Assembly (NCBI GenBank): GCA_022870745.1
Contig: CP085323.1
Coordinates: 5,270,001-5,334,000, forward strand
Direction: 5' to 3'
From: Silvibacterium acidisoli
GTDB taxonomy: Bacteria; Acidobacteriota; Terriglobia; Terriglobales; Acidobacteriaceae
Length of the DNA stretch: 64,000 nt
The first letter of the stretch is position 1; each line of letters starts with the position of its first letter. The notes below the pieces were generated by a model. It ran no database searches, had not been told where the DNA came from, and worked only from the letters and a program-made list of their open reading frames with translations. The translations under genes and the position numbers were made by a program. Positions 20,660 to 28,678 of this stretch are shown here, piece by piece.

Positions 20660-21688
20660 ATGAGCAACGAACTAGTAGTGGTTACCGGCGGATCGGGTTT
20701 CATCGCTTCTCACTGCATTCTGCAACTCCTGCAAAAGGGATATCGTGTGCGAACGACCCTCCGCTCCCTGACGCGCGAGGCAGAGGTTCGCGCCATGCTG
20801 AACCAGGGCGGTGCCGATCCGGGCGATCGTCTCACCTTCGTGGCAGCCGACCTATCCGCTGATACAGGCTGGGCAGAAGCGGTTGCCGGATGCACCTACG
20901 TCCTGCACGGAGCTTCACCTACCCCGTCCGGGAGCTACGCGACTGAAAAGGATTGGATCCAGCCTGCCGTCGATGGAGTCCTGCGGGTCTTGCGTGCCTC
21001 ACGAGATGCGGGTGTGAAGCGTTTCGTCCTTACCTCCGCTTTCGGAGCAATCGGCATGGGCCACAAGCCGCAGACGAGGCCCTTCGACGAAAACGACTGG
21101 ACGAATCTAAACGGCAAAGTTGCGCCCTATCAGAAGTCAAAGACGCTTTCGGAGCGCGCAGCATGGGATTTCATAGCGAAGGAAGGCCGGGGCCTTGAGC
21201 TGTCAGTAGTCAATCCCACAGCCGTTCTTGGCCCGGTGCTCGCGGCAGACTACTCGCACTCCATCCGCATCGTTCAGCAGCTGATGGACGGACTGCCCGG
21301 ATGTCCGAAGATCAACTCAGGTTTTGTGGACGCGAGAGACGTAGCCGACCTGCATCTGCGCGCCATGATCGATCCCGCGGCCAACGGAGAAAGATTTATT
21401 GCGATCTCCGGCGAGAGCCTGTGGATGCTGGATCTCGCCAGGATTCTGAAGCGGCGCATGGGCGCAACGGCCGCAAAGGTTCCTACGCGCGAGCTACCCA
21501 GTTGGATCATCCGCACGCTGGCAATACGGAACCCGACGATGAAAAACCTCGTTCCTTTTCTTGGCGTAAAGATGAACGCAACTTCGCAAAAGGCAATCAA
21601 GCTGTTGTGCTGGTCGCCACGGTCGAGCGAGGAGGCAATCGTCGCCGCTGCTGAAAGTCTGCAGCAACTTGGATTACTGAAAAGGTAG
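20660..21688 (+). CDS. NAD(P)-dependent aldehyde reductase, extended SDR
   Basis: A 342-residue Rossmann-fold oxidoreductase of the dihydroflavonol-4-reductase/aldehyde reductase group. The nucleotide-binding motif 'VTGGSGFIASHCI' lies at residues 7-19, the catalytic Tyr-Lys pair in 'YQKSK' (about 154-158), and the Ser in 'LTSAFG'. It probably reduces small aldehydes or ketones in the cytoplasm. It is divergent from an AraC regulator, a common arrangement for inducible reductases. It converges with the kinase gene at 21736. Confidence 0.87.
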   Translation: MSNELVVVTGGSGFIASHCILQLLQKGYRVRTTLRSLTREAEVRAMLNQGGADPGDRLTFVAADLSADTGWAEAVAGCTYVLHGASPTPSGSYATEKDWIQPAVDGVLRVLRASRDAGVKRFVLTSAFGAIGMGHKPQTRPFDENDWTNLNGKVAPYQKSKTLSERAAWDFIAKEGRGLELSVVNPTAVLGPVLAADYSHSIRIVQQLMDGLPGCPKINSGFVDARDVADLHLRAMIDPAANGERFIAISGESLWMLDLARILKRRMGATAAKVPTRELPSWIIRTLAIRNPTMKNLVPFLGVKMNATSQKAIKLLCWSPRSSEEAIVAAAESLQQLGLLKR

Positions 21689-21735: not shown

Positions 21736-23973
21736 CTAGCCGGGTTGATTCCGTTTTAGCGAAGCCAAGAATTTCATCTCCACAGTCGTGCCGTCTCCGT
21801 TCCGCAGGGAGAGATGCCCACCCAGTTGGGTAATCAACAGCCGAACGATGGTTAGGCCAAGCGTCTCTGAACTGGCAAAGTCGAAATCCGGGGATAGACC
21901 GACGCCTGAATCCTGCACAGAAAGATGCACCCACTGGTCCGCCTGCGCGAGCCGCACCTTAAGACGCCCGGTTTCACCACTGGGGAATGCATGCTTGCAT
22001 GCATTGGAGACCAGCTCATTGAGAAGTAAACCGCACGGCACAGCGCGCTCGAGATCGATACTTACGCTCTCACCCTCCATCACGACTTCGACGCGATTCT
22101 GCATGTCATAGAACGCGACAAGTTGCGGAACCAGCATGGCTGCGTAAGCGGTCAGATCTACGGCGGAAAACGAACCGGACTGGTAGAGCAGTTCGTGAAT
22201 GTGGGAGATGGACATGACCCGATTGCATGCCTCCTCCAACTGGCTAACTGCTGCGAGATCGTCGCTACGGCGGGCCTGCATCTCTAACATGCTCGTGATG
22301 ACGTGCAGGTTGTTCTTGACGCGGTGATGCACCTCCTGCAATAAAGCATCGCGCTCGGCAACACGAACCTGTAATTCGGCCGTTCTATTCGCGACCTCTT
22401 CCTCAAGCCGCACGCGGTGGTTTTTTTCCGCTTGGCGCAAGGCATTTTCGGCGCGTCCTCTTTCGATCAGGTGCGCAGCCAGTCTGGAGTACAAGTCAGC
22501 CCATCGGAGCTCCGATTCGGTGGGGACGTGCGCATCCTTGAAGTGAACAGACAATACTCCCTGGAGATCATCGCGCCGGGTCTTCAAAGGTGTACTCACC
22601 GCCGCCCTGTAACCGAGCGTCGCCGCGGTCGGTGCGTGATCGCCCCATGCCGGATCGGTGATGAGGTCAGAGGCGATCACGCGCTGCCTCGTACGGATGG
22701 CAACGGCACAGGTCGAATGAAAGTCGCGATCGACCGGTGGAATAGCATACAAGTCCCGCGGATCGAAGCCGCGTGAAGCTGCATACCGGAGCACGTCAGC
22801 CTCGGGATCATGGAACTGGACTGTGCCGCGGTCAGCTCCATAATGCACGATAGCCGCATCCAGCACTTCTCCTAACGCAGTCGACAGGTCGGTGATAGAC
22901 AGCAGCCGCTCAGTAAGATCATGCACCCTTGTGATGGCCGTAAGTTCTTCAGCTAAAGTACCCTCGACTTGTGCCAGCTCGACGTTTGCCCAGGTACGCT
23001 CTGCCACATCCTCCAGCAGGCGCAGCTCCGGGCCTGCCCATTGGCGCGGCGTTCGGCTTTGAACACCCACGATTGCGACCAGTTGCCCCTTCCTGACAAG
23101 CGGAACAGCGGCCCAGGCTCTCACGCTGATGGCTCGATAGGCGGCGCGGTATGTTTCCGATTGCGCTTCGATTTCCGTATCACTCATGAGCAGCGTACGC
23201 CCCTGCCGATAGGCTTCAGCTATATCCGCCGAAAAGTCGGAGAGATGCATCTCTTCCGGAATTGGCGCTGGATCTCTTTCATATCGCGCAGTCAGGCGAA
23301 AGGTGTCCTGGTCCGGGTCCACTTCAAAATAAGTCGCGCGCATCACGTCGAAGTACTCGGCAAGCAGCTTCATAGCTGCATTTTGCACTTGCGCTGGATG
23401 GGAAAGCCTTCGTGTTGTGTCATGCAGGTTCAGAAGAAAAGCCTGCCGCTGCTGACTTTCGCGAAGGGCCACTTCCGCGAGGACTTTGTCAGTCGTCTCA
23501 GCGAGAGTGCAAAAGATGCCCTCAACCTTTCCTGAGTCTCCACGGATTGGGGTGTAGATAACGTTCCACCAGGCGTTTTCTATCTTCCCTCGCCTCATCA
23601 CGGGAAGGAGGCTGTCGGTCAGGACGACGCCTTCTCCTTGACTGACACGCCGATAGATCGGGTCAAGGGTGCCTGCAAGTTCCTGGAAGCAATCATGCGT
23701 TCCCTTGCCAAGTGCGACCGGGTGCTTGCCGGGGTGAAGCTTTGTCCAGAGAGCGTTGTAGATTTGCAGATGCTCCGGTCCCCAGAGAATGATCGCAGCC
23801 ACTGGACTGGCAAGCGCCAGATCGACCGCGGTTCGCAACGTTTGAGGCCAGCTTTCTGTCGCACCAAGGGGGGTAGAAGTCCAGTCGTATGTGCGGATGA
23901 GCGCGCCCATCTCGTCCCCGCCTGCCGGCCAGACGGATCGATCGCTTTTGCTGACACATGCAGTTTCTGTCAT
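21736..23973 (-). CDS. Sensor histidine kinase, HisKA_2 type, PAS-GAF-GAF
   Basis: A soluble kinase of 745 residues. The N-terminal PAS-like region (about 30-150, with 'PLGATESWPQTLRTAVDLAL') is followed by two GAF domains, a coiled stretch, and the HisKA_2 phospho-acceptor box 'HHRVKNNLHVI'. The ATPase has N box 'LLLNELVSNACKHAF' and G1 box 'VQDSGVGL'. There are no membrane segments. I start at ATG 23973, which has GGAGG 5 nt upstream. The longer frame to 24042 adds 23 residues without a ribosome site. It lies 135 nt downstream of the CheB-receiver fusion, so the pair probably forms one phosphorelay sensing a cytoplasmic signal. Confidence 0.9.
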   Translation of the reverse strand: MTETACVSKSDRSVWPAGGDEMGALIRTYDWTSTPLGATESWPQTLRTAVDLALASPVAAIILWGPEHLQIYNALWTKLHPGKHPVALGKGTHDCFQELAGTLDPIYRRVSQGEGVVLTDSLLPVMRRGKIENAWWNVIYTPIRGDSGKVEGIFCTLAETTDKVLAEVALRESQQRQAFLLNLHDTTRRLSHPAQVQNAAMKLLAEYFDVMRATYFEVDPDQDTFRLTARYERDPAPIPEEMHLSDFSADIAEAYRQGRTLLMSDTEIEAQSETYRAAYRAISVRAWAAVPLVRKGQLVAIVGVQSRTPRQWAGPELRLLEDVAERTWANVELAQVEGTLAEELTAITRVHDLTERLLSITDLSTALGEVLDAAIVHYGADRGTVQFHDPEADVLRYAASRGFDPRDLYAIPPVDRDFHSTCAVAIRTRQRVIASDLITDPAWGDHAPTAATLGYRAAVSTPLKTRRDDLQGVLSVHFKDAHVPTESELRWADLYSRLAAHLIERGRAENALRQAEKNHRVRLEEEVANRTAELQVRVAERDALLQEVHHRVKNNLHVITSMLEMQARRSDDLAAVSQLEEACNRVMSISHIHELLYQSGSFSAVDLTAYAAMLVPQLVAFYDMQNRVEVVMEGESVSIDLERAVPCGLLLNELVSNACKHAFPSGETGRLKVRLAQADQWVHLSVQDSGVGLSPDFDFASSETLGLTIVRLLITQLGGHLSLRNGDGTTVEMKFLASLKRNQPG

Positions 23974-24108
23974 AAGATCCTCCAATTTCAGGCCCGGAGG
24001 CGCCCTGGTGTGACAATCCACTACATTGCCGATCAGCTGCACAGATCGGTGATCGTCCCGAACAGCGCGGGTCGCCTCTGTGGAGACACCGTCTCCACCC
24101 TTAAAAAC

Positions 24109-25317
24109 TCAGCGCGAACGACGTAGCTCTTTCTCCCGCCGGTCCAATGCAAGCTCTGTGACAGCCCGCAGTGAACCAGTGTGAAAGGGCTTCACCAGAT
24201 ATCCATAATGTTCCGCTGTTTTTACTTCAGCCAGCGTCTTCAGATCAGCATGTGCGGTGATGAATACAACCGGAATCTGAAGACGCTCCCAGATTTGCCT
24301 CGCGGCCACAATCCCGTTTATTTTCCCAGCCAGTTGGATATCCATAAAAATGACATCCGGATTCTTCTCGGCTGCGGCAGTAATCGCGTCTTCACCTGAG
24401 CTGACTGAGTCGCAGACGAAATAGGAGAGCCCATGAAGCTGTTCCTGCAGGTTTTGTGCAACAAGAGATTCATCTTCAACGATGAGAACGCGGGTTTGAT
24501 GAACTCGGGAAGGATGCCGCGCAACCAGTTCAATCAATTTGTCAGCAATGCTGTCCGCAGGCAACACGTAATCCACCGCATTGTTCTCAATCGCACTCAG
24601 CGGCATGCCCGGAAATTCCGCCTCCGATGGCTCCTGAACGATGGCTATGCCTCCCCGCTTCTTTATCTGCCACAGGCCTGCGGTCCCATCAGACAGGGTG
24701 CCGCTTAGAATGACGCCGATCATTCTGCGGCCGTAAATCGATGCTGCCGAGCGAAATAAGACGTCGATGCTCGGACGAGCGAAGCTTTCCCTTGGACTTC
24801 TCTCAAGGCGCATCAGGCCATCTTCGAGAGTGAGATGGTGATCCGGCGGGCAAACGTAAATTTGTGCCGGGTGGAATGGCTGGAGGTCCGCGGCAATGTG
24901 CACTGGCATCGACGCGTATGACTGAATCAGCCCGGCCGAACTGGCAGCCAGCCATCCCGGTGAGCAGTGTTGCAACACGAAGAAAGTAGCGGGAAATCCC
25001 TGCGGCAAACGAGCCACGATAGCACGCACTGCAACCGTGCTGCCGGCCGATCCCCCGATAACGATGACTTTGACAGGACCGTTCCCGTGATCGACGTGCC
25101 AGCCTTCATGCCGGACAGGCTCTCCAGGTAAACCGATAGGCTGAGCCGGCGCGGACTCTTGGGGACCTTTATTTAGAGAGCGCTGATACTGCCTCATCAC
25201 CTCACGCGTAGCCTGGACGCTGGCGCGCCCCTCACTAATGACCTCGAAACTGAAGCCAGCGAGCCGGCGGGAGAATTCCGCGATGCCCCGCGCCATTTCC
25301 GGCAGATCGTCTGTCAT
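24109..25317 (-). CDS. CheB-type methylesterase fused to a C-terminal receiver domain
   Basis: A 402-residue protein. Residues 1-75 form a helical, linker-like segment. Residues 80-265 are a CheB methylesterase domain with the triad S90 ('IGGSAGS'), H117 ('LQHC') and D210 ('LSGTLSDGT'). Residues 275-395 are a receiver domain with phospho-acceptor D326 ('FMDIQLAG'), acidic E281-D282, T354 and K376 ('VKPF'). Classical CheB has the receiver first; here the order is reversed. A strong GGAGGG precedes the ATG. No CheR or chemoreceptor lies nearby, so the target may not be a chemoreceptor. Confidence 0.9.
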   Translation of the reverse strand: MTDDLPEMARGIAEFSRRLAGFSFEVISEGRASVQATREVMRQYQRSLNKGPQESAPAQPIGLPGEPVRHEGWHVDHGNGPVKVIVIGGSAGSTVAVRAIVARLPQGFPATFFVLQHCSPGWLAASSAGLIQSYASMPVHIAADLQPFHPAQIYVCPPDHHLTLEDGLMRLERSPRESFARPSIDVLFRSAASIYGRRMIGVILSGTLSDGTAGLWQIKKRGGIAIVQEPSEAEFPGMPLSAIENNAVDYVLPADSIADKLIELVARHPSRVHQTRVLIVEDESLVAQNLQEQLHGLSYFVCDSVSSGEDAITAAAEKNPDVIFMDIQLAGKINGIVAARQIWERLQIPVVFITAHADLKTLAEVKTAEHYGYLVKPFHTGSLRAVTELALDRREKELRRSR

Positions 25318-25550: not shown

Positions 25551-25850
25551 TTGAACCTGCGTCAGTACGAAGTGTGCATGAGCTTTCAAACGCCAGATCA
25601 TGCCGGATCGTCTCGCCAGAATCTCTGGACCTTTACCGTCGAGCAGGTACAACATATGACCGGAGAGGCACGTGCGAAAGAGGCAGCCGTCGCACTCTGG
25701 GCTTTGCTCCATGGAGCAGCAACGCTGGAGGCAGGTCAGGTACCAGGAGAGAACAAACCCGCCAGCGGTTTTGAGTTTGGGCTGAGTGCCTGGCTTCTCC
25801 TTGCCGGCACGCCATTCCCTGCTTCGCCGGCAAAGAAACCACGGCGCTAA
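25551..25850 (+). pseudogene. TetR-family regulator remnant (C-terminal ligand domain)
   Basis: The frame contains 'LWTFTVEQVQHMTGEARAKE', 'AVALWALLHGAATLEAGQV' and 'ASGFEFGLSAWL'. This matches the conserved end of TetR regulators with the 'ALWA-LHG' C-terminal domain. The helix-turn-helix half is absent upstream, where no open frame continues. It is therefore a 5'-deleted remnant. Confidence 0.6.
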
Positions 25851-26821: not shown

Positions 26822-28525
26822 TCAAGAGATGGTTTGCAACCTGATCATGTTTCCTTCAGCGGAGGAGACACTCACACCACTTTGAAACATGGAAGCGGCA
26901 CCAACTGCCACGCCGATGCTGTAGTCAAAGTCCCTGAAGCGAAACTGCAGGCGGTCTCGTGAGACCTGCTGTAACGCGCTCTTGTCAGGGACCCATTCGA
27001 ACTTGAGAACGAGGCGTCCCGGCGATCGAACATCTACCAACTTGAAATTGAGCCATTTCTCAGCAAACAGGACCGACAGTGTTCCGCCTTCGGCCAAAGG
27101 TACGGTCACCTGGAGGCTCGATTGCGTTTCACTGACTGTCGGCAGGCCAGCCATGGTGAGTGGTATTTCCTTCCCGTCCAATCCGATTGCAACAAAACGC
27201 CCCATGGCGCGGATGCCATCGTGGCCTTCTCGAATGTCGTCACTCCAGTGATAACCATCGAGAACAGCCAGCATGCGTTGCTCGATGCCATGCTTCTTCA
27301 CCGGGTCGGTGAGATAAGGCTGAGGAAAACGATCATCGTAGATGTGCAGATCCCTGAGGTAGAACTCATTGCCGCGGAAATGCAGGTTAGCTCGCAGGTA
27401 CTTGCTCTGATACCAGACCGTGCGTTGTGGCGGATCATCTTTTCCAAACGGATCTTCCAGCATGACCTGCGCCTGGGCCGGCGTGGATGAAAAGGAGCGT
27501 TTGAAGTTGCGCCCCGTCTCGCCCATGGTTTCGACAACAACCTTGCCGCCGTCTCGCAGTATGGAGAGCTTTTCCATCTGCATGGCATAGGCCTTGCTCA
27601 TCATGGGCCATCCGAAGCTGTTTTCTTGGCCAAGCTGCGCATAGGCAATGCTCTGCGTCGGCGCATGCGCCATCATATCGAAGAAACGATCGACAAACGT
27701 TTCCGATTGGCCCGAAGGCCAGACGGGTTCCATCGTATCTGGATACCTAAAGACGTTGTCGTAATAGTAGACCGGGTCCTGGCCCAACAGGCGAAACATT
27801 GGTGTTTCGATCTGATTCTTCCTCTCGAGCGCCGGACTCCAGGCATTGATGCGATTCGGATAATATGCCGCGATGGGAGATCCCCAAATGGTGAAACCAT
27901 CCGTAGCCAGTTGATCCCGGCAATTGCCGAAAGCGTCAATTTCATATTGATCGGAGAGGTGAGCGGCGGAGATCGCATCCATGTTCCACGATGCAACGGT
28001 CTTCGCGCTGTGGCCAAAGATTCGCTTGAACGTGGCCATGGCTGTGTCTGCCAGCTTCTTCCGATCCTCAGGACTGTAACCGATTGAATAGGCAATGGGC
28101 ACATGGTAATCCCATTCCCATTGCGGATTCCCTCGCCACGCAATGCCCGCGTCGTCACAGATCTTACGGTTCATCTCAAACCAGATACCCACCTCATGAT
28201 TCGCCGGCATCTCCGCTTTGAGAAACTCGACGTACGGGCCTTCTACAAGTGCGTCGTATTGTAAGAGCCATGTGGCAGGAAACTTGCGGGCTTTGATGAG
28301 AGCCATCTGTTCGCGCACTGGCTTCATCAGATCCATGGGCTCACGTGGCTCCTCGGCGCGGATAAAGTTCATGATGTTCACCGCTCGAAGGCTGCGTGCT
28401 TTATGCGTATCACTGGCCTGGGCAAATGGTATGGACCAGGAAGCGACCATGGTGGTCAGGCCCCCGGCAATGAATTCACGCCGATTGATGGAGCTTCGGC
28501 CCTGACCAGCTTTCGCCTTCAACAT
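26822..28525 (-). CDS. Tat-exported protein of unknown function, possible deacetylase/glycosidase-like barrel
   Basis: A 567-residue protein with a twin-arginine leader ('NRREFIAGGLTTMVASW'). The N-terminal two-thirds has features of a (beta/alpha) barrel acting on carbohydrate ('ATWLLQYDALVEGPY', 'NHEVGIWFEMN', 'SWNMDAISAAHLSDQYEIDA'), reminiscent of polysaccharide-deacetylase-like folds. The C-terminal 170 residues look like a beta-sandwich. I cannot name a family. The ATG at 28525 has AGGA 7 nt upstream; the frame to 28594 is less likely. It follows the receptor by 153 nt in the sigma-factor operon, so it is probably a substrate-processing enzyme under that sigma factor. Confidence 0.75.
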   Translation of the reverse strand: MLKAKAGQGRSSINRREFIAGGLTTMVASWSIPFAQASDTHKARSLRAVNIMNFIRAEEPREPMDLMKPVREQMALIKARKFPATWLLQYDALVEGPYVEFLKAEMPANHEVGIWFEMNRKICDDAGIAWRGNPQWEWDYHVPIAYSIGYSPEDRKKLADTAMATFKRIFGHSAKTVASWNMDAISAAHLSDQYEIDAFGNCRDQLATDGFTIWGSPIAAYYPNRINAWSPALERKNQIETPMFRLLGQDPVYYYDNVFRYPDTMEPVWPSGQSETFVDRFFDMMAHAPTQSIAYAQLGQENSFGWPMMSKAYAMQMEKLSILRDGGKVVVETMGETGRNFKRSFSSTPAQAQVMLEDPFGKDDPPQRTVWYQSKYLRANLHFRGNEFYLRDLHIYDDRFPQPYLTDPVKKHGIEQRMLAVLDGYHWSDDIREGHDGIRAMGRFVAIGLDGKEIPLTMAGLPTVSETQSSLQVTVPLAEGGTLSVLFAEKWLNFKLVDVRSPGRLVLKFEWVPDKSALQQVSRDRLQFRFRDFDYSIGVAVGAASMFQSGVSVSSAEGNMIRLQTIS

Positions 28526-28678
28526 GCAAACGTCCTTTCGAACCTCGCTGTCCCGCTGGTCATCAAAAACACGAACCTTCGAACAACGGGACAACGATGT
28601 GCTATGACATGGAAATAAACGAGACAGCCATCCCCTCGTCTCCTGGCATGCGGGAGAACGAAGAATAGGCGCCTCCGT

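Follow-up and report, generated by a model that had tools for sequence, protein, structure and literature searches.

In a classical CheB, the receiver blocks the active site of the methylesterase until it is phosphorylated. PhyR shows the opposite arrangement: its output domain precedes its receiver. PMC5898713 mentions an interface between the sigma-like domain and the receiver of PhyR, and reports that in Sphingomonas both PhyR and SdrG are phosphorylated by HWE/HisKA_2 kinases; according to PMC5964349, several such kinases phosphorylate MrrA in Caulobacter. "CheB" and "REC-CheB" (REC, receiver) are given as archaeal architectures in PMC5847659. Here we analyse a stretch of 64,000 nucleotides from Silvibacterium acidisoli (contig CP085323.1, positions 5,270,001 to 5,334,000; "the window"), in which a two-gene locus (21736-25317) encodes a CheB-type methylesterase fused to a C-terminal receiver (P0001) and a soluble sensor kinase (P0002). 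Since PhyR has it, the order of output and then receiver is already known among response regulators; we found no other case with CheB. P0001 is a real and intact arrangement, unique in our sample and built of known parts, and is probably controlled by the adjoining kinase and not by the chemotaxis machinery.

P0001 (24109..25317, minus strand; 402 amino acids) has an AGGAGG sequence resembling a ribosome-binding site just upstream of its start. An N-terminal extension (residues 1-83, 25069..25317), with two helices predicted at low confidence and no Pfam match, is followed by the CheB methylesterase domain (residues 85-261, 24535..25065; Pfam: CheB_methylest, E-value 6.2e-52) and then by the receiver (residues 277-386, 24160..24489; Pfam: Response_reg, E-value 9.1e-23), all on the minus strand. 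Unlike in the REC-CheB proteins of chemotaxis, the receiver is thus not N-terminal. The catalytic triad consists of S90 (25048-25050), H117 (24967-24969) and D210 (24688-24690), positions at which 85, 85 and 84 of the 85 aligned CheB domains have the same residue. The receiver carries the phospho-acceptor D326 (24340-24342). It also has the acidic pair E281/D282, together with T354, Y373 and K376, which we take to be the residues of a working receiver. An earlier note on this DNA had proposed the methylesterase-then-receiver order, the triad and D326, and both the Pfam domains and the residue check bear it out. The frame runs for 402 codons without a stop, and its G+C is uneven across codon positions, like that of the neighbouring gene. 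In a predicted model, the CheB part superimposes well on the fold of 3sft (Z 27.9, root-mean-square deviation 1.7, 179 aligned residues); the alignment used for the model consisted of single-domain rows apart from P0001 itself and comprised 17 of the 19 CheB segments and 34 of the 175 receiver segments available.

We searched for other CheB-receiver fusions with P0001 as the query in 347 genomes of the phylum Acidobacteriota (five candidates scored per genome), in 200 genomes of the family (nine candidates scored, E-values up to 1e-26; partly overlapping the phylum set) and in 46 further genomes, which stand for 46 of 80 relative loci (E-values up to 1e-20; at least three are Acidobacteriota by title), so that whole genomes from other phyla made up a small sample. 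Among the matches listed, a second stop-free CheB-receiver match was found neither in the 347 phylum genomes nor in the 200 family genomes or the 46 further ones; all other listed matches that span both domains contain an internal stop codon. Six genus-mates have no match to P0001 at an E-value of 1e-26 or better. Several candidates turned out to be adjacent genes: in the phylum set, L016, L019, L021, L022, L028, L033 and L034 are each a CheB or REC-CheB gene followed by a receiver-first gene, and from the 46 further genomes L171 and L172 are also separate genes. A scan of one genome from each of 84,980 species with six short P0001 peptides, a design blind to distant fusions, gave 182 relatives; no CheB-then-receiver frame is present among the 80 of them that were retained, as judged by our own profiles.

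Among the 30 plasmid records listed, of 649 that matched, many CheB matches are annotated "chemotaxis protein CheB." The two records that cover at least 80% of the query are not fusions: one (H11, L042) is a REC-CheB and the other (H19, L043) is a CheB with a separate neighbouring gene. Records H2 and H8 also hold separate genes, and H17 is a CheB with the Cys/His motif described below. Five others (H1, H20, H21, H25, H28) reach 72-77% cover, and for H1 and H25 the annotation shows two genes. Viral contigs contain no P0001 relative, and no phage record covers 80% of the query. Searches by title and abstract, mostly outside the subscription literature, found no paper on a CheB with a C-terminal receiver, and the available portions of PMC2577667, PMC6194562 and PMC4618731 contain nothing on the CheB-then-receiver order.

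Where does the CheB domain come from? We built two CheB trees, one of 85 rows and one of 89 rows after 8 near-copies were dropped. The CheB domain of P0001 is sister to the clade of solo CheBs (support 100/97) and lies outside that clade's core (99/88; 89-row tree). The REC-CheB clade excludes it in both trees (22 rows, 99/98, in the 85-row tree; 14 rows, 100/99, in the 89-row tree), in agreement with the earlier suggestion that P0001 probably works outside chemotaxis. The CheB-CheR hybrids form a separate clade, with one partial row among them in the 89-row tree. By a strict pattern, a C-terminal CxxC...CxxGH motif is present in 22 of 25 solo relatives; among the three that lack it, two are cut by contig ends and one carries CRVAH as a variant. 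The motif is absent from P0001, where the receiver occupies its place. An Arg-Pro pair at residues 181-182 is kept in P0001 and in all 44 solo CheBs, whether or not they bear the motif. A survey of domain order, which the earlier note had called for, gave 27 CheB-Cys/His, 26 CheB alone (some of them cut short), 22 REC-CheB, 21 CheB-CheR and a single CheB-REC protein, P0001, among 97 distinct CheB domains; because resemblance to P0001 guided the choice of loci, these counts are not population frequencies.

The solo CheBs have features of their own. The protein at L003:1477-2409 and 26 relatives share the C-terminal CxxC...CxxGH region, which gave no Pfam match in the three that were tested. A CheR match occurs in a fetched stretch for 19 of these 27 CheB-Cys/His proteins.

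The receiver of P0001 belongs to a different type from that of REC-CheB. Its four best-matching receivers (46-50% identical) all come from REC-PAS regulators, whose outputs are GGDEF, sigma-54, HD, or none further. By comparison, within the 30 most similar of the receivers compared, it is at most 38% identical to receivers of REC-CheB proteins and at most 32% identical to receivers encoded directly after CheB genes. To the REC-CheB receiver of its own genome it is 25.8% identical over 62 aligned residues. That genome holds no close intact paralog of it: the next most similar receiver, whatever its length, reaches 34% identity. Among named NCBIfam families the receiver matches PhyR best (85.4 bits, next 49.5; residues 258-392 only) and P0002 matches PhyK best (135.5 bits, next 66.1). 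Since both scores are far under the cutoffs (240 and 750), neither protein is a member of the family concerned.

The neighbours of such receivers are informative. From the listed receiver-only matches in Acidobacteriota (41 matches in 34 genomes, counted by hand) we obtained 35 stretches of up to 14 kb, in which HisKA_2-type kinases were called with a home-made profile and an H-box pattern. Such a kinase is present in 25 of the 35 loci of these nearest receivers (40-50% identical), in 24 cases within 300 bp of the receiver frame; an earlier subset had given 12 of 16. The same profile and pattern detect one in only 1 of 20 CheB-centred regions, L147, which itself holds a receiver of the P0001 type and is counted in both sets. 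The difference between 25 of 35 and 1 of 20 means that the pairing of P0002 with P0001 is well supported by gene association beyond mere adjacency. P0002 is moreover the only HisKA_2 match in the genome (85.4 bits, against a cutoff of 22.3; the search did not cover the sister family HWE), so the view of this kinase as the likely partner, put forward earlier, gains from both results. In three Acidobacteriota genomes (L182, L183, L190) the frame of a HisKA_2-type kinase, adjacent to a P0001-type receiver protein, starts 0.4-0.9 kb downstream of a REC-CheB gene.

P0002 (21736..23973, minus strand) contains two GAF domains (22993..23388 and 22462..22893), a HisKA_2 phospho-acceptor domain with the motif HHRVKNN (residues 570-644, 22111..22335) and an HATPase_c domain (21769..22029). 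These are Pfam matches on the minus strand, and both HisKA_2 and HATPase_c are above the Pfam cutoffs. The highest mean hydropathy in 19-residue windows is 1.57, with no transmembrane segment apparent. The soluble PAS-GAF-GAF kinase described previously is therefore confirmed in its two GAF domains and its lack of an apparent membrane segment, while its PAS domain is doubtful: the N-terminal PAS_4 match is weak (20 bits, under the cutoff of 23.1). The open frame extends to a GTG at 24042, which is probably not the start; the ATG at 23973 probably is, because it is preceded by GGAGGATCTT. With this start, the gap between the fusion gene and P0002 is 135 bp. Downstream, the neighbouring gene (20660-21688) has the other orientation, and the nearest large upstream frame (26822-28594, same strand) stops 1.5 kb ahead of the fusion gene. 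For these three reasons the two genes look like one transcription unit. A promoter scan was at chance (3 found, 2.3 expected), and a terminator scan gave 9 where 4.6 were expected, none of them at the end of the fusion gene or of P0002.

Is the locus part of a chemotaxis system? The genome is a single contig of 5,359,900 bases with five CheB, three CheR, one MCP signalling and three CheW domains. The MCP domain is located at 5.06 Mb and all three CheW domains at 3.46 Mb, where an operon encodes a CheA with Hpt, dimerisation and ATPase domains and two CheW domains, followed in the list of its products by CheW, CheY, a REC-CheB and CheR, with no MCP. The remaining CheB domains belong to two CheB-CheR-PAS hybrids and one solo CheB, which is divergently encoded beside one of the hybrids. 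In the genome-wide searches, which the earlier note had proposed as a check on CheR and chemoreceptors, none of the CheR, CheW and MCP domains fell within the window, as it had stated. Its phrase "no chemotaxis genes" holds for the window but not for the genome, which has CheA, CheW, CheY, CheB, CheR and one MCP. The case that it named as contrary to its view, a chemotaxis operon with P0001 as its only CheB, does not occur: because the operon carries its own REC-CheB, along with CheR, P0001 is not the genome's only CheB.

In several phyla (L016, L040, L043, L044, L171, L172, L173, L176) a CheB gene precedes a receiver-first gene, and in L147 the row reads CheR, CheB, a REC-PAS-HisKA_2 kinase and a P0001-type receiver, all as separate genes. 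A receiver-first gene directly follows 8 of 23 CheB-only, 8 of 22 REC-CheB and 0 of 26 CheB-Cys/His genes, although it was this very order that brought some of the loci to light. The order is thus not special to the solo type, given 8 of 22 for REC-CheB and none of 26 for CheB-Cys/His. We considered a direct origin of P0001 from neighbouring CheB and receiver genes of CheR-CheB cassettes and rejected it: the order is the same, but the CheB domains are of another clade and the receivers at most 32% identical.

Some further features of the surroundings can be noted. Upstream of the fusion gene, the 1.5 kb gap contains a remnant at 25554-25811 (plus strand), whose translation shares 60% identity with an L165 frame over 86 codons; we take it to resemble the C-terminal part of a TetR-like regulator. 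The upstream frame at 26822-28594 (minus strand; 590 codons) has no Pfam or NCBIfam match at an E-value of 0.001, and 1.2 kb of it has a second copy in the same genome (C1:3400597-3401798, 77% DNA identity). A DNA search of nine genomes of the genus, including the genome itself, for an empty insertion site yielded nothing but scattered matches, from which no such site can be defined. No Rfam family reaches its gathering score between 19000 and 29000, and the PADLOC defence-system scan gave only weak matches, within the receiver part of P0001. Elsewhere in the genome (L164:2073-2212; C1:599572-599711, minus strand) lies a decayed receiver fragment with 75% DNA identity to the P0001 receiver over 116 bp, which a second frame continues. 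It adjoins a 722-codon frame that, to our eye, looks like a TonB receptor.

These findings suggest, and we consider it likely with some reserve, that P0001 and P0002 form a stand-alone cytosolic two-component system, apart from chemotaxis, in which the output is a CheB-type esterase or amidase. The GAF domains of P0002 would sense an intracellular signal, the HisKA_2 kinase would autophosphorylate, and the phosphoryl group would pass from P0002 to D326 in the C-terminal receiver of P0001. Depending on its phosphorylation, the receiver would in turn raise or lower the activity of the CheB-type serine hydrolase ahead of it, either by blocking the active site until phosphorylated, as in a classical CheB, or in another way. 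It is plausible that the reversed order makes the control unlike that of a classical CheB. If catalytically active, as the retained triad leads us to expect, the hydrolase might demethylate protein glutamates or deamidate protein glutamines, presumably on a target encoded away from the locus. This target could be the single MCP, glutamates that the CheR domains of the hybrids modify, or a protein whose glutamines are deamidated without CheR. P0001 itself might have arisen when a solo-type CheB domain was joined to the type of receiver found beside HisKA_2 kinases. It is tempting to go further and see CheB chemistry as a general cytosolic switch, acting by direct, phosphorylation-gated deamidation of glutamines or demethylation of glutamates on a protein other than a receptor, without a dedicated CheR and under a C-terminal receiver in the manner of PhyR; this extension we regard as doubtful.

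The same parts could be assembled differently. P0001 might serve the CheB-CheR-PAS hybrids by erasing the glutamate methylation that their CheR domains write on a shared coiled-coil target. The CheR matches near 19 of the 27 solo CheB-Cys/His relatives and the presence of two hybrids and a solo CheB in this genome fit such a role, which we nevertheless hold to be unlikely, as the window has no CheR, each hybrid has its own CheB domain and one of them already adjoins the solo CheB. That P0001 is instead an additional, stray CheB of the chemotaxis-like system, differently arranged and demethylating the single MCP, seems to us distinctly unlikely. The genome does have an MCP and a che operon, and the catalytic residues of P0001 are intact, but that operon is provided with a REC-CheB, the CheB domain of P0001 falls outside the REC-CheB clade, and its receiver shares 25.8% identity with that of the operon's REC-CheB and belongs to the type that accompanies HisKA_2 kinases. 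The least probable alternative, in our judgement, is that the CheB domain is a catalytically dead or weak relic, while the receiver serves the kinase as a phosphate sink or a binding module. The unusual GGSAGS loop with S93, the lack of another fusion among the matches listed in the genomes searched, the gene remnant upstream and the decayed receiver copy elsewhere would all suit a relic; an open frame of 402 codons with the uneven codon-position G+C of its neighbour, a retained triad and retained receiver residues would not, and a serine at position 93 is also seen in 2 of 44 solo CheBs.

Several observations weigh against a working stand-alone system and temper our preference for it. At residue 93, in the loop of the catalytic serine, P0001 has S where 78 of 84 other domains have G (18 of 18 CheB-CheR, 22 of 22 REC-CheB and 38 of 44 solo proteins in the 85-domain alignment), and to judge from this position S93 could reduce activity. 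With no CheR in the window, there is no obvious writer of methyl groups. Ten of the 35 receiver loci are without a HisKA_2-type kinase. P0002 has no match at an E-value of 1e-80 in the 199 other family genomes and none at 1e-60 in the 346 other phylum genomes. Because neither a second fusion nor a near relative of the kinase is listed, and because the decayed fragment is a remnant of a second gene of this receiver type, the system may be of recent origin, dispensable or in decay. The model does not fix how the receiver of P0001 sits against the active site, because residues 270-286 have a confidence (pLDDT) below 50; its predicted TM-score (pTM) is 0.52. Finally, the receiver matches the solved structure 3cg0 (71.6 bits; by entry name a response-regulator diguanylate cyclase with PAS, presumably a Desulfovibrio regulator) and Rv1626 (55 bits) better than the PhyR entries (about 50 bits), so its likeness is to a wider group than PhyR.

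Solo CheBs are present in many of the genomes searched, and literature searches showed no known job for them. The stand-alone system proposed here would be useful in this respect: with a solo-type CheB fused to a receiver beside the only HisKA_2 kinase, the regulation and chemistry of a solo CheB can be tested with two purified proteins. If it is true that the receiver controls the enzyme, control of this kind can arise whether the receiver comes first or last.

How does the locus compare with known systems? P0001 shares with REC-CheB the catalytic fold, the triad and a receiver within one polypeptide, but its receiver is C-terminal and of another type, its CheB domain does not belong to the REC-CheB clade, and it is not encoded with CheA, CheW and CheR. 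The solo CheB-Cys/His proteins have the closest CheB domains, as the sister clade, and differ in that P0001 has a receiver instead of their Cys/His C-terminus, and that its window lacks a CheR. In CheR-CheB cassettes with hybrid kinases (L016/L147, L040, L059, L172 and others), CheB is likewise linked with kinases and receivers away from a che operon; unlike P0001, they consist of separate genes, include CheR and carry CheBs of another clade followed by more distant receivers. The REC-PAS regulators beside HisKA_2 kinases have the most similar receivers (four typed), with kinases of this type near most such receivers, but in the four typed the receiver is N-terminal and followed by PAS, and the outputs are others. 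In PhyK-PhyR, the system of the alphaproteobacterial general stress response, the output is a sigma-like domain and not CheB, and P0001 is under the PhyR family cutoff; what the two systems have in common is an output followed by its receiver and, in P0002, a PhyK-like HisKA_2 kinase.

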